Source of the DNA: Opitutia bacterium
Lineage (GTDB): Bacteria > Verrucomicrobiota > Verrucomicrobiia > Opitutales > Opitutaceae
Assembly: GCA_947474365.1 (NCBI GenBank)
Contig: CANJIU010000027.1
Location: forward strand, 1 to 64,000
Length of the DNA: 64,000 nt
Direction: 5' to 3'
The notes under the pieces were generated by a model, which ran no database searches, was not told the origin of the DNA, and saw only the letters and a program-made list of their open reading frames with translations. The position numbers and the translations under genes were made by a program. Shown piece after piece: positions 14,912 to 30,270 of the stretch (its first letter is position 1; every line of letters begins with the position of its first letter).

Positions 14912-15007
14912 GTTGGATTTATCCTTTTAGGTTAGTCGCTGGCAGGTCGGCTTGGGAAATCACCCGCCCGCGAAGTTTTGGTTGATGCGCGTCAGTCAGC
15001 TAACGAA

Positions 15008-15202
15008 TTAGAGACCGAACGGCAGGGCGCGCTTGAGCGGCTTGGCATGGCCTTCAGCCACCAGCTTGTCGCGGGAGGCACGTCGCTTTTGCTTCGTGCT
15101 CTTCGCGCCAAGCAAGTGACGAAAACCAGGCGTGCGTCGCACGAGCTTGCCCTTGGCGGTGAGTTTGAACCGCTTGGCAATGGACTTCTTGGTCTTTTGC
15201 AT
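15008..15202 (-). CDS. rpmI: 50S ribosomal protein L35
   Basis: 64 residues. MQKTKKSIAKRFKLTAKGK, RRTPGFRHLLGAKSTKQKRR and the C-terminal KPLKRALPFGL match L35 throughout. It is a late-assembling 50S protein encoded, as usual, before rplT. The customary upstream infC (initiation factor IF3) is absent: the gene before it is a PIN/TRAM protein, 114 bases away. Confidence 0.97.
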   Translation of the reverse strand: MQKTKKSIAKRFKLTAKGKLVRRTPGFRHLLGAKSTKQKRRASRDKLVAEGHAKPLKRALPFGL

Positions 15203-15316
15203 GGAGAGAGCGGTCGAAAACAGAGATCCGACCTCCGCATGGCAAGGGGAAAGTTGGTCGATTTTTTCCGAACCCTTCCCTTTCGCCCCGCCCCCTCAAT
15301 CAGGACAGAATCCCGC

Positions 15317-16324
15317 TTAATCCGCCTCGCTCACCAATCGGGCAAAAATCAGTTTTCCACCGGCGGTCGGCATGACGCTGACAATTTCGGCCTGCACCCG
15401 GCGACCAATGAGGGCGCGCGATCCGTTGACCACGACCATTGAGCCATCCTCGACATAGCCCACCGCCTGGGTTTCCTCCTTGCCCGGTTTCACCAACTCC
15501 ACTTCGAGGCGTTCGCCGATCATGAGTTCCGGACGGAGTGACTTCGCGAGGGCATTGAGATTGAGCCACGGTACCCCGTGGAATTCCGCCATCTTGGCGA
15601 GATTGTAGTCCGTTGTCAGTAGCTTGGCCTTCATCGACTGGGCGAGGAACACCAACTTGGCGTCCACATCCTCCCGTTTCGTGACCTCGCTCTCCGTGAT
15701 CCGAATATCCAGATTCTTGATCCGACGGAGCTCGTTCAAAACATCCAGTCCACGCCGGCCACGGGCCTGCTTGTGCGAGTCGCTCGAATCGGCCACCGCC
15801 CGAAGCTCGTTCAGAACGAAGCGCGGGATCACGAGCGCGGTGCTCAAGAATCCGGCCTCACACACCCGGGCGATACGGCCGTCGATCAACACGCTCGTAT
15901 CCACCACCACCAACGGCACGTCGACATCGTGCGGTACAAACCGCACGTACGGAATCACGAGATTGAACTCGTCCTTGCCACGCAGCGCGATGACCGTGGC
16001 CAGATAGGTGATGACGAGGAACAGCGCCAGCCGCACGAGAAACTTGTTCTGCTCGTCCGCTTTCTCGAAAAATGGCGACGAACTGATGAAAAAGGCGATG
16101 AGCGATCCCACGGCGAGACCAAACGTCACCGCCGAAAGCGCCCGCAGCGAAAACCCCTTGAGCAGCAGGTCCGTCAAAACAACCAGAATTCCGAGGGAAA
16201 GCCCGACATAGATGCCACGCAGACGATACATGTCCCAGTCGGGACTGGAATAGCAGACGAGCCAGCCCGCCGCCGCACAGAGCACAACAAAAACGAGCCT
16301 AATCGGCAAAAGGGTTTTGTTCAT
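15317..16324 (-). CDS. Membrane-anchored PIN/TRAM domain protein (YacL family)
   Basis: 335 residues. Four predicted membrane helices occupy about residues 8-112. A PIN nuclease domain follows, with the acidic metal ligands in VVDTSVLIDGR, LNELRAVAD, DAKLVFLAQ and LLTTDYNLAKMAE. A TRAM RNA-binding domain ends the protein (IGERLEVELVKPGKEETQAVGYVEDGS split over about residues 268-330). YacL-type proteins are widespread and conserved but their RNA target is unsettled. The gene is preceded, 26 bases upstream, by a 38-residue membrane peptide gene and followed by rpmI. Confidence 0.9.
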   Translation of the reverse strand: MNKTLLPIRLVFVVLCAAAGWLVCYSSPDWDMYRLRGIYVGLSLGILVVLTDLLLKGFSLRALSAVTFGLAVGSLIAFFISSSPFFEKADEQNKFLVRLALFLVITYLATVIALRGKDEFNLVIPYVRFVPHDVDVPLVVVDTSVLIDGRIARVCEAGFLSTALVIPRFVLNELRAVADSSDSHKQARGRRGLDVLNELRRIKNLDIRITESEVTKREDVDAKLVFLAQSMKAKLLTTDYNLAKMAEFHGVPWLNLNALAKSLRPELMIGERLEVELVKPGKEETQAVGYVEDGSMVVVNGSRALIGRRVQAEIVSVMPTAGGKLIFARLVSEAD

Positions 16325-16350
16325 ACAAGTTTCCCGTTGATTTCTTCAAC

Positions 16351-16467
16351 CTACGGGAGGCGCAAAAAAAAGATCACCGCGGGAGCGCCGATCATGACCG
16401 CCATGAGGGCATAGAGCAAAAGCTGCACGCGCCGGGCTTTTAGCTTTTCAGCATCGGTCGGTTCCAT
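16351..16467 (-). CDS. 38-residue single-pass membrane peptide upstream of the PIN/TRAM gene
   Basis: A short open frame not normally called. It starts with ATG at 16467 and ends with TAG at 16351. The product has a charged N-terminus (MEPTDAEKLKARR) and one hydrophobic helix (VQLLLYALMAVMIGAPAVIF) ending LRLP. The organisation, cytoplasmic charged head, one membrane span and immediate C-terminus, is that of a real small membrane protein. It sits 26 bases before the YacL-family start on the same strand and is divergent from the EVE gene. It may assist the PIN/TRAM membrane protein; no homologue is known to me. Confidence 0.65.
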   Translation of the reverse strand: MEPTDAEKLKARRVQLLLYALMAVMIGAPAVIFFLRLP

Positions 16468-16497
16468 TTCGGTGCAGCGCACCAAACGAACCCACAC

Positions 16498-16920
16498 ATG
16501 ACAACGCAATACTGGCTGATGAAATCGGAACCCGACGCGTACGCCTGGGCTGACTTGGTCCGCGACGGCACCACCGACTGGACTGGCGTCCGAAATTATT
16601 CAGCCCGACTGCATCTCAACGCCATGCGTCCCGGCGACCGCGTCCTTTTCTACGAAAGCATGACCACCAAGGCCGTGGTCGGTACCGCCGAGGTCACCCG
16701 TGCGGCATTCGCCGACACGACCGCGGAGGAGCCGGGCTGGGTGGCCGTCGAGATCAAGGTGGGCGTCGCCCTCCCCCATCCCGTCACCCTAGCCCAAATC
16801 AAGGCCGAACCCACCCTGGCCAAAATGACCCTGCTGCGCATTTCCCGGCTTTCTGTCCAACCCGTCGCCCGCACGGAGTTCGACCGCATCGTGAAAATGG
16901 GAAAAACACCACCGTCGTGA
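16498..16920 (+). CDS. EVE domain protein (thymocyte nuclear protein 1-like)
   Basis: 140 residues, a single EVE domain. The opening TTQYWLMKSEPDAYAWADL and DWTGVRNYSARLHL, then MRPGDRVLFYES, are the hallmark of this PUA-like fold, which binds modified bases in DNA or RNA. Bacterial members are usually constitutive single-domain proteins of unsettled role, or appear within restriction systems; there is no restriction gene here. It is followed 10 bases later by tyrA. Confidence 0.9.
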   Translation: MTTQYWLMKSEPDAYAWADLVRDGTTDWTGVRNYSARLHLNAMRPGDRVLFYESMTTKAVVGTAEVTRAAFADTTAEEPGWVAVEIKVGVALPHPVTLAQIKAEPTLAKMTLLRISRLSVQPVARTEFDRIVKMGKTPPS

Positions 16921-16930
16921 CGTCCATTCC

Positions 16931-17836
16931 GTGTCCCCGCTCGACACGGCGGGACGATTTTGCGTGCCTCCCGCAGTGACCGCTCACCCTCAACTCACGA
17001 TCCTCGCACCCGGCCTGCTCGGCGGCTCAGTCGCCCGCGCGGCACGCGTGCACGTCGCGGCGCAGCGAATCGTGATCTGGGCCCGCCGGCCGGAGGCCCG
17101 GCTCAAGTTGCGCGACCAGCCGTGGTGTGACGCCATCGCCGATACGCCCGAGGAAGCGGTGCGCAATGCGAGCATCGTCGTCATCGCGGCCCCGGTAGAC
17201 GCCATCGTGCCACTCGCCCGGCAAATTGCTCCCGCGCTGCCTCCCGGAGCCTTGGTCACCGACGTCGGCAGCGTGAAGGGGGAAATCTCCCGGCTCGGCG
17301 GCGCAGCACTCGCGCCGCACGCGCATTTCATCGGCGCCCATCCCATGGCTGGTTCGGAGAAAACCGGCTGGGAACACGGCGCCGCCGGCCTTTTCGAAAA
17401 TCGCACCTGCTTTGTCACGCCGCTGCCCGGGAGCGACGCCCGCGCGGTTGCGGACGTGGTCGCCTTCTGGAGCAAGCTCGGGGCCGAGGTAGTGACGGTC
17501 GATCCCGACCGGCACGACGAAATCGTCGCGCACATCAGCCACCTCCCGCAGGTCATCGCCTCAAGTCTCTGCGCGTTTCTCGCCCAAAAAAATCCGACCT
17601 GGCGCAACTACGCCGGTGGTGGTCTCCGGGACACCACGCGAATCGCCGGCAGCGACGCCCAGCTCTGGCGCACCATCCTCGAACAAAACCGTGACGAGGT
17701 GCTGCGCGCGCTCGGGAAATTTCAGGACGAATTGCACGCGTTTCAAGCTGCCCTGGCGAATCGTGACTACGTCGACGTCGTCGCCCGGATGGAACGCGGC
17801 AAGGCGTATCGCGATCAGTTCCGCCCGCGCCCCTAA
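16931..17836 (+). CDS. tyrA: Prephenate dehydrogenase
   Basis: About 301 residues from GTG 16931, or 286 from an in-frame GTG at 16976. ILAPGLLGGSVARA near the N-terminus is the NAD-binding Rossmann motif; VTDVGSVKGEI, GAHPMAGSEKTGWEHG and the histidine in HISHLPQVIASSL are catalytic landmarks of the TyrA family. It oxidatively decarboxylates prephenate (or arogenate) in tyrosine synthesis. No ACT or chorismate mutase domain is attached. It converges on bshA with a 12-base gap. Confidence 0.93.
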   Translation: MSPLDTAGRFCVPPAVTAHPQLTILAPGLLGGSVARAARVHVAAQRIVIWARRPEARLKLRDQPWCDAIADTPEEAVRNASIVVIAAPVDAIVPLARQIAPALPPGALVTDVGSVKGEISRLGGAALAPHAHFIGAHPMAGSEKTGWEHGAAGLFENRTCFVTPLPGSDARAVADVVAFWSKLGAEVVTVDPDRHDEIVAHISHLPQVIASSLCAFLAQKNPTWRNYAGGGLRDTTRIAGSDAQLWRTILEQNRDEVLRALGKFQDELHAFQAALANRDYVDVVARMERGKAYRDQFRPRP

Positions 17837-17848
17837 CCCGCGGCGCCG

Positions 17849-18985
17849 TTACGCTCCGCACACTCGCCGGTAAAGCGCCTCGTAGCGCGGCACAATGGCG
17901 TCCGCCGAGAAGAGTTCCCGCGCGCGACCCTTCGCCGCCTGACCAAGCCGCGCCCGCTCCACCGGATCGCGCAGCAGCGATTCCACGCCCCGCGCGAGTG
18001 AATCCGCGTCTCCGACCGGTACGAGCACGCCGGACTCCCCCGAAACCACGACCTCGGGAATCCCGCCGACCGCCGTCGAGACACTCGGGCAGCCAAACCA
18101 CATTCCTTCGAGAATGCTGAGGCAAAAGCTCTCGGACTCGGAGGCAAACAAACCGAGATCCGCCGCCTGCAGATAGTCCTCCACTTCGATCACTTTTTCC
18201 CGCACCAAAACCCGGTCGGCAATTCCGAGGCGCCGCAGGTGCAGGCTGAACGGGGAAAAATCGCCGCCCGCGAGGATCACCAGTTTGAAGGCGTCCCGCG
18301 GCCGCACGCGGGCCACGGCGTCAAGCAAGAGATCGATCCGCTTCACCGGCCGCAAATTCGAGAGATGCACCACCATCGCCTCGTCCCGCAACCCGAGCTC
18401 AGCCCGAACCTCCTCCCGAGATCGCCGCGGCACCTTTGGCTCGAAAAAATTGTGGATGACATCGATCCGCCGCTCGATGCCCAGCAACCGCTGCGTTTCA
18501 TCCCTCAGCCAACCGGAGACCGCCGTCACGGCATCGGAACAATTGAGGGCATGGCGGATGGCCGGACCATAGCCGGCATCGCGGCCCAGCAGCGTCGTGT
18601 CGGTGCCGTGGAGCGTGGTCACCACTTTCGGCTGGCGCCCTTCCGGCAGCATCGACCGCGCAAGAATGGCCGCCGTGGCATGCGGCACCGCGTAATGCAC
18701 GTGCAGCACGTCGAGGGCGTAATCGCGCGTGACCTCGGCCATCTTGACCGACAGCGGAAGCGTATAATCCGGATAGCGGAACAACTCGTAGTCGTTGATC
18801 ACGACCGGGTGAAAGTGCAGACGCGGAGCGTTCGCCGGCATGCGAAAGGGGCGCTCGTAGGCAATAAAGTGCACCTCATGACCTCGCCGTGCCAGATCCT
18901 CGCCCAAGGCCGACGCGAGGATGCCGCTGCCGCCGACTGACGGATAGCAGGTAATGCCGATTTTCAGTGGGCGGGGTTCCGGCAT
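17849..18985 (-). CDS. bshA: Bacillithiol glycosyltransferase BshA
   Basis: 378 residues, the normal length for BshA. The sequence LKIGITCYPSVGGSGILASAL at the N-terminus, HVHYAVPHATAAILA, TTLHGTDTTLLG and the C-terminal GT4 region (SESESFCLSILEGMW) are specific for BshA, which joins GlcNAc from UDP-GlcNAc to L-malate. The ATG at 18985 lies 2 bases after the bshB1 stop; a TTG at 18991 would overlap it. It is the last gene of the unit that also encodes BshB1 and a BshC-like protein, so this is the first pathway step transcribed last. Confidence 0.95.
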   Translation of the reverse strand: MPEPRPLKIGITCYPSVGGSGILASALGEDLARRGHEVHFIAYERPFRMPANAPRLHFHPVVINDYELFRYPDYTLPLSVKMAEVTRDYALDVLHVHYAVPHATAAILARSMLPEGRQPKVVTTLHGTDTTLLGRDAGYGPAIRHALNCSDAVTAVSGWLRDETQRLLGIERRIDVIHNFFEPKVPRRSREEVRAELGLRDEAMVVHLSNLRPVKRIDLLLDAVARVRPRDAFKLVILAGGDFSPFSLHLRRLGIADRVLVREKVIEVEDYLQAADLGLFASESESFCLSILEGMWFGCPSVSTAVGGIPEVVVSGESGVLVPVGDADSLARGVESLLRDPVERARLGQAAKGRARELFSADAIVPRYEALYRRVCGA

Positions 18986-18987
18986 GC

Positions 18988-19713
18988 TCAAAACCGCCGC
19001 GCGGCCCGCTCCAACGCCACGAGTGAGTCGACGACAATCGCATCCCCCGGAAAAAGCGGGATGGCATGCCCGAGGCCGGCGCGCAGTCCGTTCAGCCGCG
19101 CGCGCGCGAGCTGAAGTTCGCCGTAATTGCGCGTGCGCATCTGCGAGGCATGCGCCGCCATCGCGGCGGTCCAGGTCGCGACGATTTCAGGGTCGGATAC
19201 ATCCACGAGCACGCGCCCGTGATCGGTCGGTTCCGCCTCCGGCGACACCGCGTAAAAAAACAATTGGCCGATGCCGTGGGGACGCTGGCGTTTCAATTCC
19301 CTCAGCCCACCATATCGCGCCAACCGGGCCGCATCGCGCACCAATCGGCCGAGACACACGTGGTCGGGGTGCTGGTTTTCCACCACACTCGGCGTGAGCA
19401 CGATCGATGGACGCAGCCGGCGAATGATGGCCGCCAATTTGATCGCATGCTGCGGTTTAACCTCAAAGTGGGCGTCGCCCCCGAGATTGACGAACTCAAT
19501 CATGGCGCCCAGCACCGCCGCGGCTTGCTTCGCCTCGCGGGTGCGCCCAGCCGGCGTGCCATTGCTGCCCGCCTCGCCACGCGAGCAGACCACGAAGTGC
19601 ACGCGCCGACCGTTCCGCGTTTCCCTCGCGATCACGCCGCCGCAGCCAAATTCGATGTCATCAGGGTGCGCGCCAAACGCGAGCAGCAGCCCGGCGTCAG
19701 TGGTAGGCTTCAT
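18988..19713 (-). CDS. bshB1: Bacillithiol deacetylase BshB1 (PIG-L family)
   Basis: 241 residues. LAFGAHPDDIEFGCGGVIARE (AHPDD at about 15-19) and VENQHPDHVCLGRLVRDA supply the zinc ligands of the PIG-L/LmbE fold; CSRGEAGSNGTPAGRTREA is typical of BshB1. It removes the acetyl group from GlcNAc-malate, giving GlcN-malate for BshC. The ATG at 19713 lies inside the end of the preceding BshC-like gene (17-base overlap), so the two are translationally linked. Confidence 0.95.
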   Translation of the reverse strand: MKPTTDAGLLLAFGAHPDDIEFGCGGVIARETRNGRRVHFVVCSRGEAGSNGTPAGRTREAKQAAAVLGAMIEFVNLGGDAHFEVKPQHAIKLAAIIRRLRPSIVLTPSVVENQHPDHVCLGRLVRDAARLARYGGLRELKRQRPHGIGQLFFYAVSPEAEPTDHGRVLVDVSDPEIVATWTAAMAAHASQMRTRNYGELQLARARLNGLRAGLGHAIPLFPGDAIVVDSLVALERAARRF

Positions 19714-20461
19714 CGGAACGGTCGATGGGGTCACGGTTGACGAAAGTAATCTCAGGCGCGTCTTCCTTCCGCAAGTACGCTTGTTCGCCTGCTCCCGCGA
19801 TGTAGTGCGTGCACTGCAACACCGTCTGCATCCAGCGGAGGCGCGTGTCACGGGTGGGAGTGACCTGTTCCTTGGCGAATTCCATCGTCGGCAGCGACAG
19901 GTAACTCTCGCCACCCTCGTGCAGCTTTGGCCCGCCGTCGAGCCAGCGCGCCCGCACAACCTCCCCGGCGTACGGCAGGTCGACAAAAAAATCCGCGACC
20001 TCGCAGGCCGCCCGACGCACCGCCGGATCGCTCGACCGCACGACGCGCACGCCCTCGAGCAACCCCATCCGGCGGTACATCTCGAGGCAGAAATCGGCCG
20101 CGTTGGTGGCTGCGACCTGCTTGAACGCCTCGACCCAGCGGGGTTCGACGTACGCACCGAGCTGCCGCGCGGTGTTGGCCTGCCAGCCCGCCGGAATTCG
20201 TTTGAGAAACAGCGGCGACCACTTCCGCTGCACCTTGTTTTCGAAGGCAAAATTCAGCGTCGCGGGCTCGTTCGTCTTGCGATGGCGCAAAATCGTCTGC
20301 GTCTCGCGCGCATCGTGGTCGCTGTCGTGGCAGAAATAGACGATCTCGCCGCCAATCTCGGACTGGAGTCGTCGCGCCGTCTCAAACTTGGCAAAGAGAA
20401 AGCGGCGCGGGAAAAATCCGCACGGCTGCTGGCCGAAACAAATTACCGGCGACGCGCTCAT
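19697..20461 (-). CDS. Compact BshC-like protein (candidate bacillithiol cysteine ligase, core domain only)
   Basis: 254 residues, no family assigned at first sight, but four landmarks of BshC occur in order: CFGQQP at 9-13 (BshC GGQQ), CHDSDHDARET at 45-54 (BshC GEDHDLDEI), RSSDPAVRR at 142-150 (BshC NSGDPGIKK) and YIAGAGEQAY at 220-229 (BshC FIAGPGEINYW). Canonical BshC has about 540 residues, with a Rossmann-type core, inserted peptides and a C-terminal coiled coil. Here the two halves of the core are present while the inserts are short and the coiled coil is missing. The gene overlaps the symporter before it (ATGA) and bshB1 after it. Adding cysteine to GlcN-malate is therefore the likely reaction; activity is inferred. 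Confidence 0.7.
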   Translation of the reverse strand: MSASPVICFGQQPCGFFPRRFLFAKFETARRLQSEIGGEIVYFCHDSDHDARETQTILRHRKTNEPATLNFAFENKVQRKWSPLFLKRIPAGWQANTARQLGAYVEPRWVEAFKQVAATNAADFCLEMYRRMGLLEGVRVVRSSDPAVRRAACEVADFFVDLPYAGEVVRARWLDGGPKLHEGGESYLSLPTMEFAKEQVTPTRDTRLRWMQTVLQCTHYIAGAGEQAYLRKEDAPEITFVNRDPIDRSDEAYH

Positions 20462-22170
20462 GCGGGCACCGGCACCTTTCTCGGCGGGAGCATCGTCTGC
20501 AGGATCAGGCTGAACACCACGCAGGCGGTGCAGCCGATGGGATTGAGCCAGAGGTAACCGATTTCGTGCGCCGGATAAAATTTACCGAACAGGTAGATGC
20601 CCACCACGACCAGTTGCGCCGCGACCGCCGCCCAAAACACGGCCGTGCCCCCGACGTGTTTCAGGAAGAACGCCACGATGAAAACGCCAAGCAGGGCTGG
20701 ATAAAAAATCGACGCCACGATGTTGAGATACTCGATCAGGTTCTCCGCCAGCCGGACGAAGAGCGCGAAACAAATGGCGAACACACCCCAGAGCGCCGTG
20801 AAGCGTTTGGCGTTGCGTACATTCCTGGCCTCGTCGTGCGCCGCCAGCGGCCGGAAATGCCGCCAGAGGTCGATGGTGCTGGTCGTGCCGAGGGCGTTGA
20901 GTTCGCCGGCTTTGGATGAGAGCGCCGAGGCAAACATGACGGCGATCAGCAGGCCGATCACTCCGTGGGGCAATTGGGTCAGGACGAACGTGATGAAGAC
21001 GTAGTCCGAATCCTTGGTCTTGGCCCGCGGGTCCGCGGCGAGCAACGCGTCCTTCGCCTCCTTGCGCACCGCCTCAATTTTCTTCTGCGCCGACACCAGC
21101 GCGGCGCGACTCGAGGTCTCAATCAACGGATCGCCGCCCTCGCGGGCATCCGCCCAGGCCTTGGCGGCGGCCGCCCGTTGGGCATGCAGCGCGGTGTGCT
21201 TTGCCTCGATGGCGCGAAATTTCGCCGCGTCGGGCCCCTCCACGTGTCGCCGCCACTCGGTCTGGTTGAAAAAGACCGGCGTGGCCGGCTGAAACGTGTA
21301 GAAGACGAAGAGCAGCGCCCCGAGGATCACGATGAAGAACTGCATCGGGATCTTGAAAACCGCGTTGAACATCAGGCCGAGACGTCCTTCCCGCAGCGCC
21401 GCACCACCGATGTAACGCTGCACCTGCGACTGATCGGTGCCGAAATACGAAAGCGACAGAAACAGTCCGCCGAGCATCCCGCTCCAAAACGTGTAACGTC
21501 GCTCAAGATCCGGTGTGAAATCCACGGCCTGGAGCTTGCCCATCGCACCAGCGAGGTGCACCGCATCCGGCGGCAGTTTCCAGAGCAGGACGCCGAACGC
21601 CGTGATCATCCCGCCAAAGATCACGCCCATCTGCCATTTCTGGGTAAGGTTTACCGCCGCACTTCCCCCGGTCACGGTGTACACGATGGCCAGCAATCCG
21701 GTGAACACGATCGTGAGCTCAAGCTGCCATCCCAACACAGTGGAAAGGATGATGGCCGGCGCGTAAATCGTGATGCCGGCCTGAATGCCGCGTTGCAGGA
21801 GGAACAGCGCCGCTCCGAGCAGGCGGGTCTTCGCGTCGAAGCGTTTTCCGAGGTACTCATACGCCGTGTAGACACCGAGCTTGCGGTAAATCGGCAGGAA
21901 CACGGCGCACACAATGATCAAGGCGAGCGGCAGCCCAAAATAATTCTGGATGAAGGCGATTCCGCTCTCGTAGGCCTGCCCCGGCAGCGAGAGATACGTG
22001 ATCGTGCTCGCCTGCGTCGCCATCACCGACAACCCGATCGTCCCCCACTTCGTCGTGTGGTTGCCCTTCAGATAGGTGTTGAGGTTGTCGGTGTGGCGCG
22101 TGCGCCAGGTCCCGTAGGCCGCGATTCCCAGCATCGTCCCCAGCAGCACGATCCAATCGATTGGGTTCAT
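20458..22170 (-). CDS. Sodium/solute symporter (SSS family) with cytoplasmic or periplasmic helical insert
   Basis: 570 residues and about 13 membrane helices. ATQASTITYLSLPGQAYESG and the following helices are typical of the SSS/solute-sodium symporter family. Between two helices, residues of about 296-388 form a soluble, Ala/Glu/Lys-rich insert (KFRAIEAKHTALHAQRAAAA and on) predicted helical, not found in classical PutP or SGLT but present in a subfamily known from Bacteroidetes. The substrate is unknown. The gene is coupled by ATGA overlaps both to the 46-residue membrane peptide before it and the BshC-like gene after it, so it might import a precursor of bacillithiol or a product of the secreted PIG-L hydrolase. 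Confidence 0.88.
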   Translation of the reverse strand: MNPIDWIVLLGTMLGIAAYGTWRTRHTDNLNTYLKGNHTTKWGTIGLSVMATQASTITYLSLPGQAYESGIAFIQNYFGLPLALIIVCAVFLPIYRKLGVYTAYEYLGKRFDAKTRLLGAALFLLQRGIQAGITIYAPAIILSTVLGWQLELTIVFTGLLAIVYTVTGGSAAVNLTQKWQMGVIFGGMITAFGVLLWKLPPDAVHLAGAMGKLQAVDFTPDLERRYTFWSGMLGGLFLSLSYFGTDQSQVQRYIGGAALREGRLGLMFNAVFKIPMQFFIVILGALLFVFYTFQPATPVFFNQTEWRRHVEGPDAAKFRAIEAKHTALHAQRAAAAKAWADAREGGDPLIETSSRAALVSAQKKIEAVRKEAKDALLAADPRAKTKDSDYVFITFVLTQLPHGVIGLLIAVMFASALSSKAGELNALGTTSTIDLWRHFRPLAAHDEARNVRNAKRFTALWGVFAICFALFVRLAENLIEYLNIVASIFYPALLGVFIVAFFLKHVGGTAVFWAAVAAQLVVVGIYLFGKFYPAHEIGYLWLNPIGCTACVVFSLILQTMLPPRKVPVPA

Positions 22171-22307
22171 GCGTAAGCGCGCGAAAAGATCGCAAGGGCG
22201 ACGACCGTCAGCAGGAACACCCCGAACACAAAGAAGTACACCGACCGCCAGCTGCGGAAACCGGGCACGCCGGGCGACTCGTCGTCAGGAGGAGGCACGC
22301 GCTTCAT
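22167..22307 (-). CDS. 46-residue single-pass membrane peptide, likely symporter accessory subunit
   Basis: A short frame between PIG-L and symporter genes. ATG 22307-22305 overlaps the PIG-L stop as ATGA and its own TGA overlaps the symporter ATG, again as ATGA. The product has a Pro/Asp-rich head (MKRVPPPDDESPGVPGFRSW) and one hydrophobic helix (VYFFVFGVFLLTVVALAIF) with a short basic end. Two perfect translational-coupling overlaps on both sides make it almost certainly a gene. Small one- or two-helix partners are known for several SSS transporters; that role is inferred here. Confidence 0.8.
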   Translation of the reverse strand: MKRVPPPDDESPGVPGFRSWRSVYFFVFGVFLLTVVALAIFSRAYA

Positions 22308-24841
22308 CGTCCCAGGGAAACGAGGTTGGCAAACAAGCGGTACGCACCCGACACGCCCGCGGGCAGCTGGCGGAAAAACGCGAGTCCCGTGTAGACGTAA
22401 TAGCCTTTCCCGGATTGGGCGATCAACACCCCGCTGGACAGCGGCTCTTCTCCGGGATCACTCATCGCGAGAATTGTCGCATAACGGTTCCCATCCCAAC
22501 GGCTCGGAAAATAGGCGCCACGCTCCTGGACCCAGCCGTCGAAATCCACGGGCCCGATTCGGTTCGGGATGTTTAACGCGGGATGATCGGGCGCCAGAAA
22601 CGTGACCGGCGCGTTCTCGTCGGTCACGCGCCATTTCGGAGGATCGCCCTGAATGGAAATCGGGAACGGCCCCAACTGCTCGGCTCTCAAGCCCGTGGGC
22701 CGGTTGTACTGTGCAATCACGGTTCCGCCGCGTTCGACATAAGCGAACAAGGCCGACAGGTTCGCGGCAAGATCCCGCCGTTCGTTGAACGCCCGGACGC
22801 CGATTACCACGGCATCGAGCCCCTGCAATTGCCCGGGCGTCAGATCTGAGCCCCTGAGCGTCTTAACCTGATAGCCGAGTTGCTCCAGGTTTTCCACGGT
22901 GTCATCGCCCGCACCCGGCACGTAGCCGACCGTCCGGCCCCGAATCGCAAAATCGAAACTCACGACCCGCGCCCGGGCCGGCGGCTGGAGAATTTGCCGC
23001 GGGATGTGATCGTAGCGGATCTCGGTCCGAAGGTTGGAGTAGCGCTTCCCGTCGATTTCAACCGAAGCGGTGATTCGCCCCTTTGCCGCCTGTGCGGGCG
23101 AGGTCACGGAAAACGTGAAGCCCGTCCTGGCCCCGCTTTTCGCCAGACGAAAGTCGTGCGACGCCGGGGAAACTGTCCAACCCGCGGGTACCGCCAACTT
23201 GAGTTTGCCGGAGGCCCCGGCCCGTACCGCCGTCACGTCAACCGCCACGGACTGGGTGGACCCGGGTCTGAACAGCGAGACGTTGGCCCCAAAATGCAGC
23301 GACACCGGCGACACCACATCGACGCGACGGCGCATTTCGCCCTTCGCTCCTTTTTCGACCCGCACCGCCTCGCCCGCCAGCACCATCGTCTGGGCACCCA
23401 CCTCGAGCACGTATTCGACCGGGAACGAAGGCGGATTTTCCGGACGACCAATCAGGCCGGGGTCGTCGACCCGGAAGATTCCCGCCGCGCCGTCTTCACG
23501 CAGCCAATACGGCTGGGTCAGCACGGTGTCGGGCGGAACCACCCTCGACTCCTCCAAGACCGCCGCTTCGTTTTGAACAAGGGCACGCGTCGCATCGAGT
23601 TCTCCCGGCAAAATCGGCGTGCGCACCGACACCAACCGGACCGGAACCGTCGACGTCACCCGCACCGCATGTCGCAGCTTCAAGGTCTCACCCGGCGACA
23701 CCTCTGCCTTGTCCGCCGTGGTCTCCACTGAAAGCCCGAGACAGGATTGCAGGATCCGGTCGAGTTGACCGCGCTTGTCGTCGACCAAGGGATCGGACGG
23801 AAGCGCCGCCACCAGCGCGCGAATTGCCAGTAGCGCAGGTACACTCGCCGCCGGCTCCTCTCCGTTGAAACCCGCGATGGCCTTTGCCGCCAGTTGACCC
23901 ACTTCCGCCCCGCCCGGCACGCGTGCCCATGTTGTGTCGACGCCTTCCATGATGTCTTCCGTGGCGGGTTCTCCGCCCATCAGTACAAACGTCTGCAGAT
24001 TGGAACCACCACCGCCACGTCCGCCGAAATTTCCAAAACCCTGCGTGATGTGCCGTCCGCGGCTACGGCTGGCGATGGAGCCAAACGACTCGCCCGTGAC
24101 GGGATCGTCACCGCCAATCTCAACTTGAATCGAAGGCGCGCCGGCGGCTCCACTCCGGCCACCACCGCCCCCCCCGCGACCCGGCCCGCCGCCATTCAAC
24201 ATCACGCGCTTGGGCTGCCACACCGTGAGGCCCTGCGCGAGCTGCTCCGGATAGGCGCTGGGATCACCCGCCAATTTGAACGCTTCGATACCCAGCAGAC
24301 CTGAGGCGGTGTGATGCCCGTGCGTGCCGCCACCGGTCGGGGAAAAACGTGTGACGATGACGTCGGGACGAAATTGCCGAATGACACGAACGACGTCGCC
24401 GAGCACCTGGGCGCGATCCCAAATCCGCAGCGCCTCGTCGACCGACTTCGAGTAACCAAAATCAATCGCCCGGGTGAAAAACTGCCGGCCGCTGTCAATC
24501 TGGCGCGCGGCGAGCAGTTCCTGCGTCCGGGCCACGCCGAGTTTTTCGTCGAACTCCGAGCCGATTTCGTTCTGGCCGCCGTCGCCGCGGGTCAGCGACA
24601 GATAGGCGGTGCGATATCCGCGGCCACGCGCAAAATAGGTGATTAGCGCCGTGTTCTCGTCGTCGGGGTGAGCCGCCACGTGCAACACCGTGCCGGTCGT
24701 CGCGAAACTGCGCAGATCCTGCAGAATCGCGGCGCCCGGGGCCACTTCACCGGAACGGACTCCGAGCGCCGCGGCGAAAAACGTGCACGCCGCCACCCCG
24801 CAACGGATGCGCCTGACGAAGTCGCGGGGCCGGCCGTGCAT
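22304..24841 (-). CDS. Large secreted PIG-L family hydrolase with C-terminal GATase-like domain
   Basis: 845 residues. An N-terminal signal (RRIRCGVAACTFFAAALG) is followed by a PIG-L/LmbE deacetylase domain: AAHPDDENTALITYF with AHPDDE at 57-62, and THGHHTASG with the third zinc ligand near 174-177. Between them and the later half is a Gly/Arg-rich stretch (about 217-235). The remainder has Ig-like segments and, near residues 680-760, a Rossmann-like part (AVVIGVRAFNERRDL, GGTVIAQYNRPTG) resembling class I glutamine amidotransferase/ThuA folds. Substrate unknown, probably an acetylated amino sugar conjugate outside the cytoplasm. It is coupled to a membrane peptide and symporter downstream. 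Confidence 0.85.
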   Translation of the reverse strand: MHGRPRDFVRRIRCGVAACTFFAAALGVRSGEVAPGAAILQDLRSFATTGTVLHVAAHPDDENTALITYFARGRGYRTAYLSLTRGDGGQNEIGSEFDEKLGVARTQELLAARQIDSGRQFFTRAIDFGYSKSVDEALRIWDRAQVLGDVVRVIRQFRPDVIVTRFSPTGGGTHGHHTASGLLGIEAFKLAGDPSAYPEQLAQGLTVWQPKRVMLNGGGPGRGGGGGGRSGAAGAPSIQVEIGGDDPVTGESFGSIASRSRGRHITQGFGNFGGRGGGGSNLQTFVLMGGEPATEDIMEGVDTTWARVPGGAEVGQLAAKAIAGFNGEEPAASVPALLAIRALVAALPSDPLVDDKRGQLDRILQSCLGLSVETTADKAEVSPGETLKLRHAVRVTSTVPVRLVSVRTPILPGELDATRALVQNEAAVLEESRVVPPDTVLTQPYWLREDGAAGIFRVDDPGLIGRPENPPSFPVEYVLEVGAQTMVLAGEAVRVEKGAKGEMRRRVDVVSPVSLHFGANVSLFRPGSTQSVAVDVTAVRAGASGKLKLAVPAGWTVSPASHDFRLAKSGARTGFTFSVTSPAQAAKGRITASVEIDGKRYSNLRTEIRYDHIPRQILQPPARARVVSFDFAIRGRTVGYVPGAGDDTVENLEQLGYQVKTLRGSDLTPGQLQGLDAVVIGVRAFNERRDLAANLSALFAYVERGGTVIAQYNRPTGLRAEQLGPFPISIQGDPPKWRVTDENAPVTFLAPDHPALNIPNRIGPVDFDGWVQERGAYFPSRWDGNRYATILAMSDPGEEPLSSGVLIAQSGKGYYVYTGLAFFRQLPAGVSGAYRLFANLVSLGR

Positions 24842-24846
24842 CGGGC

Positions 24847-25422
24847 TTATTTCTTATTGGTAAAAGCGACCGAATACTGCGTGTCCTCCCATGCCATCTT
24901 GATCACGCCGGCACCCGCGCCCGTCTTCTCAACTGCCATTGTGAAGGGATCAACATTGCCGTCGGTCTTGCCCTTCTTGAGGTCGATGCGGGCGAGTTCG
25001 TTGGCCTTCTCGTCCGCCTCCTTGTAGGGGATGCCCCACTGGCCGGTCTTCTTGTTGATGATCAGTTTCGCCGAACCGTCCGCCTGCGGGACGGTGAACA
25101 ATGAATAGGTGCCCGCTGCGAGCGAGTAGCCGCCGATCACAATGGGCTTCGCGACCGTCAGGAGCGTCGCCTCATTGGCTCCGGTGCGCCAGACTTGGCC
25201 ATAAGGCACGAGCCCTCCCCAAATTTTGCGGACCTCTCCGCTCTTGGGATTCTTGGCGCCGGGACGGCTGTAGGCGATTTTGACTTCGTTGCCGTCAATA
25301 TCGGCACTCACGGTGGCGGGCGGACTCGGACGGGCCTTCTTGGCCTTCTTTTCTTGGGCGAAGAGCGCGGTCGAACCGAGCACCGCAGCAGTTAAAAGGG
25401 CGATGAATTTGAATCGGGTCAT
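24847..25422 (-). CDS. Secreted DUF2911 protein (single domain)
   Basis: 191 residues. A signal peptide (TRFKFIALLTAAVLGSTALFAQ) is followed by a DUF2911 domain with the conserved YSRPGAKNPKSGEVRKIWG and PYGQVWRTGANEATLL, then YSLAAGTYSLFTVP. DUF2911 proteins are small exported proteins common in Bacteroidetes and Verrucomicrobia, with no established role. ATG 25422 is chosen because the signal starts there. It ends 5 bases before the PIG-L gene, so the two are probably cotranscribed. Confidence 0.85.
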   Translation of the reverse strand: MTRFKFIALLTAAVLGSTALFAQEKKAKKARPSPPATVSADIDGNEVKIAYSRPGAKNPKSGEVRKIWGGLVPYGQVWRTGANEATLLTVAKPIVIGGYSLAAGTYSLFTVPQADGSAKLIINKKTGQWGIPYKEADEKANELARIDLKKGKTDGNVDPFTMAVEKTGAGAGVIKMAWEDTQYSVAFTNKK

Positions 25423-25552
25423 GATGTTTTCAGGGGATTGAGCTAATCGGGGTGAAGTTGAAACCGCGGCGACACTGGCGGGCACTGGCGCAAACGCAAC
25501 CGTGTGGAGAGGGACGAATGAAGCCCCGGACGCTTGCGTCGAGGCCGACGGC

Positions 25553-26431
25553 CTATTTGAGACTGGCGATGAGCGCCTCGTTCAGGCGGACGTATTCGGC
25601 GCGCGGTGCGCCTTCGGCCGCGGCCATCGACTGTTTTGCCGCGGCGATCGCACCCGCCTTGTCGCCCAGTTTGGCGAGGATCTTCGCCTTGCCGTGCAGC
25701 ATGTAAAACAGCGGCTTGTCTCCCTGGGTGGCCTTTTCGATCCAGCTGCGGGCCTTCGCCAAATCCAGCCCGTTGTCGTGGTAAAACATCGCGGCGGTAA
25801 AATACGTGGCCGGCGGGAGCGTCGCACCTGACGTCATCGCCGCGTCGATTTGGGCGACGACCTCCTTGATCACGTCGAATTCCAACTTCACCGGCACGCG
25901 GGTCTTTTCCCAAATGAGATTCAGCGTCGCCGACTCGGTCTTGAGGTCGTTGAGATCGATCGTAAAGGTCTCGACCGCCTGCGCGAGGGCGACCGGCTTC
26001 ACCTTGATACGGAGGGCGTCGTTCTCCTGTTTATAACTGTACGCTCCCCACTCGCCCGTGACCTTGTTGAAGATCAACGTCCACTCCTTCGCATCCGGAA
26101 TCGAATAGAGCGCATAGGAACCCGCGGCGAGTTCCTTGCCCTGCAACCGGACGGCGGTGCTGAAGGTGATCTTCGTCGCGGTGTTCGCCCCCGTCCGCCA
26201 CACTTCGCCATAGGGCAGAAACGCGCCGAAGATCTTCCGGTCGCGCATGCTGGGGCGCGCGTAGACGACCTCCACCTCCGTGAAGCCGACCTTTTGCTTC
26301 AACGTACTGGTCGGACTCGCCGCGGGGGCGTTGATCTTGGGAGGCTGTTGCGCGTGGGCACAAACGCCGGACGCCGCAAACAGCAGGCCGACGGAAACGA
26401 GACGAACCGCGAAGGAATGGGTAGTGATCAT
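25553..26431 (-). CDS. Secreted DUF2911 protein with TPR-like C-terminal extension
   Basis: 292 residues. A signal peptide (SFAVRLVSVGLLFAASGVCA) precedes a DUF2911 domain with YARPSMRDRKIFGAFLPYG and EVWRTGANTATKITF, the same motif as in the next gene, showing tandem duplication. The C-terminal part (about 190-290) has helical pairs such as YFTAAMFYHDNGLDLAKARSW and AKILAKLGDKAGAIAAAKQSM that look like tetratricopeptide repeats, probably a protein-docking platform. It starts the chain of minus-strand genes that continues into the PIG-L and bsh genes; a gap of 130 bases separates the two DUF2911 genes. Confidence 0.85.
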   Translation of the reverse strand: MITTHSFAVRLVSVGLLFAASGVCAHAQQPPKINAPAASPTSTLKQKVGFTEVEVVYARPSMRDRKIFGAFLPYGEVWRTGANTATKITFSTAVRLQGKELAAGSYALYSIPDAKEWTLIFNKVTGEWGAYSYKQENDALRIKVKPVALAQAVETFTIDLNDLKTESATLNLIWEKTRVPVKLEFDVIKEVVAQIDAAMTSGATLPPATYFTAAMFYHDNGLDLAKARSWIEKATQGDKPLFYMLHGKAKILAKLGDKAGAIAAAKQSMAAAEGAPRAEYVRLNEALIASLK

Positions 26432-26524
26432 GGGTATTGCCGAAAACCGTGACGAAGATTCATCGCAGGATACAATCTCGAATACGTGCGGGGCCGGCAC
26501 ATCCGGCCTCCGGACACTCGTCCG

Positions 26525-29257
<2,733 letters not shown>

Positions 29258-29424
29258 CGGTTCGTGCAGGATTTGAACCGCCGAGAAAACGAGCCGCCGG
29301 AGCGCGACGCAAGTGTTAGTTCCCGCAACGCGTAACGATCCCGTAAGAATTCGGCGCGACACCCGGACCCAATCAGCGCGCGCCGGGAAGGTCATCCCAC
29401 CCGAAAAACGACCGGCAACGGCCC

Positions 29425-30270
29425 TCAGGCACCGGCGCGCGTCAATTCCCGCACCGCCATCGCAAACTGCGCCAAGTGACGCCGGATTCCCCCAAAACCC
29501 GCGTTTCGGCCCCCGGTCGACTCGTCCAGATAGAGCGCGCGGTTGATCTCAATCTGCACACTGTAGCGCTGCCGGGCCGGGTCTCCATGGGTCCGCACAA
29601 TATCGGCGCCCCGGTGCGGATCGTTAATCGTCGCCCTCAATCCGCGCTGCAAAAAAAACGCCGCCACCCACTCGGTGAGCACGCGGGGGGCAGTGGTTCC
29701 GTTGCGATCGCCCACCACTACGTCCGGACGCACCACATCCGGCCCTCCGCTCCGACCCAAGCCCCGCGACTTCATCGAGTGCATGTTGAAATGCCACACG
29801 ACACCATGCTGCCTCCACGCCGCCTCGATCGCGTCACGCAGCGCCCGACGATACGGCACGTGACAGCTGGCGATGCGCGCCTGCACTTCCGCCACTGAGA
29901 GCTGCCGATCGTACATCGGCACGGCCGGACCGGCGAAGCGGCGAATCAGCCCCATGCCCCGCCGGCCGTACTCGGTCAATTCCACCGGTTGCGGCCAGGG
30001 CGTGGCGAGGACTTCCGGATCAATGTCATTTTCCGCCCGGTTGGGATCGACATAGGCGCGCGGGAAACGGGCCGTCACCAGGGTCGCGCCCGCCGCAGTC
30101 ACGTCGGCACACAATTCGTCCACATACGCATCCCACGTGGTTCGAATCTCCGCGCGCGTCGCCACCGGTCGGAAGTCGGCGGGGAATTCAAAGCCACTGT
30201 GCGGCGAATCGAATACCACGGGCGCCGCCCGCCCCTTCGGAGTCGTCACGGAAACGGCGCAGAATTCCAA
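29425..30270 (-). CDS. N-formylglutamate amidohydrolase family protein
   Basis: About 281 residues. FDSPHSGFEFPADF, ARFPRAYVDPNRAENDID, YGRRGMGLIRR, WHFNMHSMKSRG and QIEINRALYLDE are the conserved blocks of N-formylglutamate deformylase (HutG-type), which releases formate and glutamate, the last step of one histidine degradation route; relatives act on other N-acyl amino acids. The start is uncertain: TTG 30270 keeps the beta-strand that precedes VVFDSPHSG, and GTG 30249 is an alternative; no ATG is suitably placed. It follows the TonB receptor by 41 bases, within an island of amino-acid-derivative hydrolases; no other hut gene is present. Confidence 0.87.
   Translation of the reverse strand: MEFCAVSVTTPKGRAAPVVFDSPHSGFEFPADFRPVATRAEIRTTWDAYVDELCADVTAAGATLVTARFPRAYVDPNRAENDIDPEVLATPWPQPVELTEYGRRGMGLIRRFAGPAVPMYDRQLSVAEVQARIASCHVPYRRALRDAIEAAWRQHGVVWHFNMHSMKSRGLGRSGGPDVVRPDVVVGDRNGTTAPRVLTEWVAAFFLQRGLRATINDPHRGADIVRTHGDPARQRYSVQIEINRALYLDESTGGRNAGFGGIRRHLAQFAMAVRELTRAGA

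Follow-up and report, generated by a model that had tools for sequence, protein, structure and literature searches.

Which protein adds the cysteine when a bacterium carries bshA and bshB1 genes and no full-length bshC? The question is raised by a 64,000-nucleotide stretch of DNA from an Opitutia bacterium (contig CANJIU010000027.1 of assembly GCA_947474365.1, positions 1 to 64,000), the whole of which is called the window here. A compact BshC-like protein is encoded there at the place where the missing cysteine-adding enzyme would be expected, in bacteria said to be thiol-less: a 2018 survey, in the passages of it used here, places Verrucomicrobia among the major lineages without a documented or predicted low-molecular-weight thiol (PMC6282198). 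An earlier note on this DNA, made from the letters alone, had read the protein as a minimal, core-only BshC or a new cysteine ligase of that lineage.

The BshC criteria of a 2025 survey, as worded in the sections used here, are similar length, more than 80% coverage and more than 25% identity (PMC12719100), and the compact protein would therefore be shut out; the main text of that survey, in the version consulted, contains no word beginning with "Verrucomicrob". No such compact protein is mentioned in the consulted portions of three papers that name bacillithiol and Verrucomicrobia (PMC6282198, PMC8261052 and PMC10033563). In the open-licence literature searched, we found no paper pairing bacillithiol with Opitutus and no description of a short BshC.

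A conserved gene coupled to bshB1 and bshA

The features of the locus are listed in Table 1. The 254-residue product carries the four BshC landmarks in the order described in the earlier note: GQQP at residues 10-13, DSDHD at 46-50 with the following E53, SSDPAVRR at 143-150 and IAGAGEQAY at 221-229. The gene starts in an ATGA overlap with the stop codon of the upstream symporter gene, and its 3' end overlaps the start of bshB1 (ATG at 19713) by 17 bp. The bshA gene, which starts at a TTG at 18991 or an ATG at 18985, lies after bshB1, so that the whole arrangement was present as described. Standard models do miss the protein, as had been suggested: no Pfam or NCBIfam family matched it at E ≤ 10, and a search against PDB sequences gave nothing better than E 0.12.

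Table 1. Features of the compact BshC-like gene and the genes around it in the window
Feature	Position	Strand	Remarks
bshA, N-acetyl-glucosaminyl L-malate synthase	17849..18991	-	TIGR03999 401.2 bits, above the cut-off of 273.7
bshB1-like deacetylase, PIG-L family	18988..19713	-	TIGR04001 best NCBIfam match, 137.2 bits, cut-off 182.5
Compact BshC-like protein gene	19697..20461	-	254 aa; core Rossmann-type domain only
Motifs of the compact BshC-like protein			GQQPCG, HDSDHDxRE, SSDP, R207, GAGExxY
Sodium:solute symporter, SSS family	20458..22170	-	TIGR00813 210 bits, cut-off 184
Unannotated 46-aa membrane peptide	22167..22307	-	One hydrophobic stretch, by eye
845-aa PIG-L family protein	22304..24841	-	PF02585 59.5 bits; TIGR03446 (Mca) 41.7 bits
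Two DUF2911 genes	24847-25485 and 25553-26500	-	PF11138 141 and 188.3 bits; head of module

Comparison of the window gene with another locus of the family (L001) gave 29, 14 and 90 mismatches at codon positions 1, 2 and 3, respectively, and one scan of a species genome collection yielded 259 stretches that encode relatives. Because of this third-position bias and these relatives, we conclude that the open reading frame at 19697-20461 is a real, conserved gene, coupled to bshB1 and bshA.

The best 80 of the 259 stretches, at 69-85% identity, were kept, and the 80-locus counts below refer to these alone, with loci from other searches left out; some loci of different searches represent one genome (for example, L033 and L083). 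By record title, the 80 comprise 33 Opitutales, 22 other Opitutia, 5 Limisphaerales, 2 other Verrucomicrobiia, 1 Pedosphaerales, 1 Akkermansiaceae and 16 without rank. In a tree of 103 rows, a branch with an SH-aLRT value of 96 had the Opitutales rows all to the same side. Within the order of the window, the compact family was matched in 24 of 177 sampled genomes; the match in one of them, G017, is a fragment of 39 residues, a second piece in G062 is a fragment of 85 residues, and the remaining matches are 54-100% identical. Protein length ranged from 253 to 282 aa in the 102 other complete loci. A plasmid collection gave zero matches to the family.

Sequence comparison with BshC

Four alignments were built: A1, from 57 of the best 80 loci; A2, with 27 members, including the window protein, nine of those 80 and 17 from the genome-sample searches; A3, of six full-length BshC proteins (522-554 aa); and A4, from 29 of 64 usable loci. 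Among the 27 members of A2, PF10079 was matched at E ≤ 1 by seven (best E 0.001) and TIGR03998 by five (best E 0.0029); the window protein matched neither at this threshold. As a gauge of noise, one member of A2 matched Imm7 at E 4e-4 and two matched GstA (best 0.006). PF10079 matches at about E 1e-3 prove little alone, because the unrelated Imm7 model was matched at E 4e-4. A better match came from a bridging relative, L125 of genome G433, which matched PF10079 over residues 20-151 with 25.9 bits (E 7.8e-6; cut-off 27) and TIGR03998 with 20.5 bits (cut-off 265.8). Three of the 5 proteins scored together with L125 matched PF10079 at E ≤ 1. By the curated cut-offs, neither the window protein nor L125, the best relative found, belongs to PF10079 or TIGR03998.

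Comparison of the profiles themselves, a check proposed in the earlier note, gave a divided result. On one side, the resemblance went beyond chance: the local profile-profile score of 34.4 against full-length BshC was reached by none of 200 column shuffles (maximum 25.9), and the global score of 17.3 by one of 200; a reversed-profile control scored 18.6 locally and 5.0 globally. On the other side, hhalign assigned low probabilities, 21.7% for A2 against the six full-length BshC proteins (E 9.9e-4, 54 columns from GQQ to DHD) and 6.1% for the narrower A1 (E 6e-3). The case for homology therefore leans on the fold and the bridging relative rather than on hhalign alone. An hmmsearch with the A2 profile against PDB sequences gave zero matches.

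When the 27 compact and six full-length proteins were aligned together, in a joint alignment of 33 that is based on sequence only and loose in its middle part, twelve residues were invariant: G10, Q11, Q12, K25, D48, H49, D50, E53, R207, G223, E226 and Y229. Their equivalents in B. velezensis BshC are residues 89, 90, 91, 104, 133, 134, 135, 138, 334, 350, 353 and 356. The conserved core residues of BshC (GQQ, K, DHDxxE, R and GxxExxY) are thus retained in the compact family.

The predicted fold matches BshC

An AlphaFold2 model of the compact protein, built with 58 sequences, had a mean pLDDT of 94.5 and a pTM of 0.91. Among 811 PDB matches at E ≤ 10 in a fold search with this model, just one lay at E ≤ 0.001, and this was 4wbd, B. 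subtilis BshC (E 7.9e-10; probability 1.00; TM 0.66 by the length of the query and 0.34 by that of the target; 16% identity; 307 columns including gaps, with an rmsd of 6.4). The next matches were class-I tRNA synthetases, from rank 2 (E 8e-3). The BshC core fold is therefore present, on a predicted model rather than a solved structure. The structural match to the BshC core on which the earlier note had made its reading depend was thus found, and a minimal, core-only BshC is supported by it. Together, these results establish the compact protein as a homologue of BshC, by sequence and predicted fold.

The compact protein resembles BshC in its predicted core fold, the order of its motifs and the twelve invariant residues. 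Unlike BshC (522-554 aa in the six used), the window protein has 254 residues, lies below all curated cut-offs and lacks the N-terminal region of about 80 residues (B. velezensis BshC has 79 more residues before the GQQ loop). Just 25 residues follow the GxGE..Y motif, and the coiled coil of BshC therefore has no counterpart in the compact protein; in Bacillus BshC, this C-terminal coiled coil serves dimerisation. The coiled-coil model PF24850 was matched over its cut-off in none of 25 genomes with the compact gene, versus all three with a full-length bshC. A separate coiled-coil gene elsewhere was considered and rejected: weak PF24850 matches (best E per genome 0.02-3) occurred in 11 of these 25, and the matches, which lie in open frames 144-2611 aa long, look like ordinary coiled coils. 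The stretches between the motifs, which bear on the question of the connecting peptides CP1 and CP2, are shorter in the compact protein than in BshC, as judged from aligned sequences.

All 27 compact proteins share six invariant cysteine and histidine residues, C14, H45, H49, C125, C217 and H219, of which H49 is also found in BshC. Extra invariant residues, including H45, C14, C217 and H219, set the compact family apart from BshC. MshC and cysteinyl-tRNA synthetase carry zinc, and for this reason a metal site formed by some of C14, H45, H49, C217 and H219 is possible. MshC, the mycothiol cysteine ligase, likewise puts cysteine on a glucosamine. It is of the same broad class-I-like Rossmann type as the compact protein, but the fold match (PDB 8hfn) is weak, at rank 24 with E 0.13 and TM 0.40 on the query.

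The compact gene in place of full-length bshC

Across 387 genomes sampled from the phylum, treated as one sample because three samples agreed in size and handles, the compact family was found in 25 genomes, full-length BshC over its cut-off in 3 and BshA in 28, the last at E ≤ 1e-90, a threshold that would drop any BshA between 273.7 and roughly 305 bits. The 28 BshA genomes consist of the 25 with the compact protein and the 3 with full-length BshC, none having both and none neither. Each BshA genome of the sample has one match, another likeness to BshC, and BshA accompanied the compact protein in 25 of 25 cases. The genomes are all related, and the presence and absence splits are therefore not independent events. 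A fourth, sub-threshold PF10079 match in the same sample proved to be the compact gene of G433. A closer scan of the class of the full-length cases, covering 98 genomes, added one more PF10079 match over the cut-off, in a genome of another family (G526).

The window's own genome gave no PF10079 match at E ≤ 10 in a search that does find B. subtilis BshC. The assembly is 97.6% complete and 7.4% contaminated. The absence of a canonical bshC elsewhere in the genome, on which the earlier reading also depended, accordingly held at this threshold and completeness.

The three full-length clusters (L178, L179 and L180) come from one family of the same phylum and are ordered methyltransferase (nmbA)-bshC-bshB1-bshA. 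The C-B1-A order of the compact operon is that of these clusters in three of three cases, a further likeness to BshC. The best PDB match of their methyltransferase was 9ri2 (E 4e-26), which is NmbA of Chlorobaculum tepidum according to the sections used of PMC12719100. With YpdA and BrxA/B encoded elsewhere in the genomes, these clusters form a predicted N-methyl-bacillithiol system. A scan of viral contigs for full-length BshC with other neighbours returned zero relatives.

The operon around the compact gene

Among the best 80 of the 259 loci, the 3 kb around the compact gene contain, in the same orientation, bshB1 downstream in 80 of 80, the symporter gene upstream in 79 and bshA in 74. In L059, the sole locus without the symporter, only about 200 bp of sequence precede the compact gene. 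For five of the six loci without a nearby bshA the whole genome was searched, and bshA was found over the cut-off in four of the five. As a separate observation, G546, the genome of locus L048, has two BshA genes over the cut-off on different contigs, and L048 itself has none by tblastn.

Further upstream, among 59 loci whose upstream sequence extends for 7 kb or more, 51 have a DUF2911 gene, the PIG-L protein gene and an adjoining symporter gene; four have no DUF2911 gene, two no PIG-L protein and two no adjoining symporter. A DUF2911 gene lies within 7 kb upstream on the same strand in 55 of the 59. The description of the cluster in the earlier note was therefore right as to bshC-like, bshB1 and bshA and incomplete as to extent, with further operon genes upstream and with YpdA, BrxA/B and NmbA not found over threshold in the compact genomes. 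Other neighbours in the window are pheS, PIN-TRAM and EVE genes. Of the 80 loci, 3 have EVE and 5 have tyrA within 3 kb of the compact gene; the 3-kb count is uninformative on pheS, PIN and valS, because in the window as well these are further away than that. An Rfam search of window positions 15000-30000 gave nothing.

The gene for the 46-aa membrane peptide lies between the PIG-L and symporter genes and shares ATGA overlaps with the PIG-L stop and the symporter start. In 65 of the 71 loci inspected, a short open reading frame with a W-x(1,2)-[VL]Y motif immediately precedes the symporter, the core in the window being W-R-x-V-Y, and the peptide is possibly a small partner of the symporter.

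The 845-aa PIG-L protein was present in 24 of the 25 compact genomes (the exception being G480), in none of the 15 BshA-less genomes, which are the same-family genomes without a compact match in the 387-genome sample, and in one of the three full-length-BshC genomes. Its gene lies megabases away from the compact gene in G126 and G415 and on another contig in G491; in the full-length genome G284, the PIG-L gene, symporter and DUF2911 gene are on a contig other than that of bshC. The protein is present with BshA even when unlinked and therefore accompanies the pathway as such rather than the operon alone. We presume that Bacteroidota also have full-length bshC genes beside PIG-L and symporter genes.

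In a model of the PIG-L protein (pLDDT 86.8), a low-confidence N-terminal helix, the PIG-L domain, a middle part rich in beta structure and an alpha/beta part at the C-terminus can be told apart, and several N-termini resemble signal peptides, as judged by eye. AHPDDE and both histidines of HGHH are invariant in the PIG-L domain. A fold search confirmed this domain (LnmX and diacetylchitobiose deacetylase), gave many matches to the beta-rich part and did not separate deacetylase from amidase. The PIG-L domain is like that of the Mca/Bca thiol-conjugate amidases, and Mca is the best NCBIfam match; unlike them, the protein scores 41.7 bits against a cut-off of 277 and has a signal-peptide-like start and extra domains. 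We regard it as a candidate thiol-conjugate amidase.

Proposed function and alternative explanations

We consider it likely, with a probability of about 0.7, that the compact protein is a ligase of the BshC lineage, takes the place of full-length BshC and finishes a bacillithiol-type molecule. BshA would join GlcNAc to malate, the BshB1-like enzyme would take off the acetyl group, and the compact protein, as we infer its substrate, cysteine specificity and chemistry, would couple an amino acid, most likely cysteine, to the amine thus freed on GlcN-malate. The product would be bacillithiol or a closely related compound. The class-I-like Rossmann core would provide the active site, with the GQQ loop after strand 1, DHD..E after strand 2, and GxGE..Y together with R207; both parts that the compact protein lacks, the N-terminal region and the coiled coil at the C-terminus, would be dispensable or replaced. 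For BshC itself, a 2015 review states, in the portion used here, that cysteine ligation to GlcN-malate was never demonstrated in vitro (PMC4360819). The compact protein offers a single-domain subject for testing how BshC-type ligation works, and if it is the ligase, a bacillithiol-type pathway is predicted for part of the phylum (25 of 387 genomes; 24 of 177 in the order of the window).

Counted in favour of this ligase are the fold match to 4wbd, the PF10079 score of L125, the twelve shared residues, the bshB1 and bshA context and the 25 + 3 split of the BshA genomes. Counted against it are the lack of a BshC-model match for the window protein, the low hhalign probability, the Imm7 noise match, the absence of YpdA, BrxA/B and NmbA over threshold from all 25 compact genomes and a BshB1-like protein below its equivalog cut-off. 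About half the usual length could also mean that a bshC has been cut short or is decaying here, or that the assembly or the reading frame is at fault; the narrow length range of the other complete loci, the codon-position bias, the invariant motifs and the confident fold refute this. That an unrelated class-I Rossmann enzyme, kin to MshC or the aminoacyl-tRNA synthetases, carries the motifs by chance is extremely improbable: such proteins do follow in the fold search, the synthetases from rank 2 and MshC at rank 24, but BshC is better by seven orders of magnitude in E-value, the motif order is shared and no shuffled profile reached the local score. A regulatory or accessory subunit that has kept the BshC fold would account for the half size and for the lack of a coiled coil over the cut-off in compact genomes; we hold this to be very unlikely, as the shared core residues are invariant and none of the 25 compact genomes has a PF10079 match over the cut-off that could be a partner ligase.

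Partner genes and the product of the pathway

The main rival keeps a BshC-lineage ligase and changes its product: another amino acid would be added, or cysteinyl-GlcN-malate would be used outside the cell, for metal binding, detoxification or exchange, rather than as a redox buffer. YpdA (TIGR04018) and BrxA/B (TIGR04191) were found over their cut-offs in none of the 25 compact and none of the 15 BshA-less genomes, versus all three full-length genomes, and a full-length NmbA-like protein was distributed in the same way (0/25, 0/15 and 3/3). Below these thresholds, a partial match of 48 bits to the NmbA-like protein was seen in G172, and seven compact genomes have partial YpdA matches. These absences from 25 genomes count against plain bacillithiol and point toward a different product, as do the linkage to a secreted-looking PIG-L protein, symporter, membrane peptide and DUF2911 genes and the invariant H45, C14, C217 and H219, which BshC's shared set lacks. 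However, the absence of BrxA/B is weak alone, because two control genomes with BshC, Thermus composti and Deinobacterium chartae, also gave no TIGR04191 match; YpdA was found in both, and its absence weighs more against ordinary bacillithiol. BshA lies well over its cut-off, the core residues held in common with BshC speak for unchanged chemistry, and the PIG-L and symporter pair also occurs in one full-length-BshC genome. On balance, we judge a different product to be unlikely, though a serious contender to the bacillithiol-type molecule.

For the bacillithiol-type pathway, the linkage of a secreted-looking PIG-L protein to a symporter suggests that conjugates may be cleaved outside the inner membrane and then taken up again. 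A fuller cycle of thiol export and salvage, working without YpdA or bacilliredoxin, can be drawn, and we regard it as quite doubtful: a metal site of some of C14, H45, H49, C217 and H219 would hold the substrate thiol, cysteinyl-GlcN-malate would be exported, the secreted PIG-L protein would cleave conjugates outside the inner membrane, the symporter and its 46-aa partner would reimport GlcN-malate, and the compact ligase would recharge it.

With regard to YpdA, open frames of 756-821 aa in four genomes (G033, G049, G126 and G415) and the three full-length genomes (G217, G284 and G462) match positions 1-265 of the YpdA model. They score 128-166 bits, below its cut-off, and may encode a YpdA-like fusion protein.
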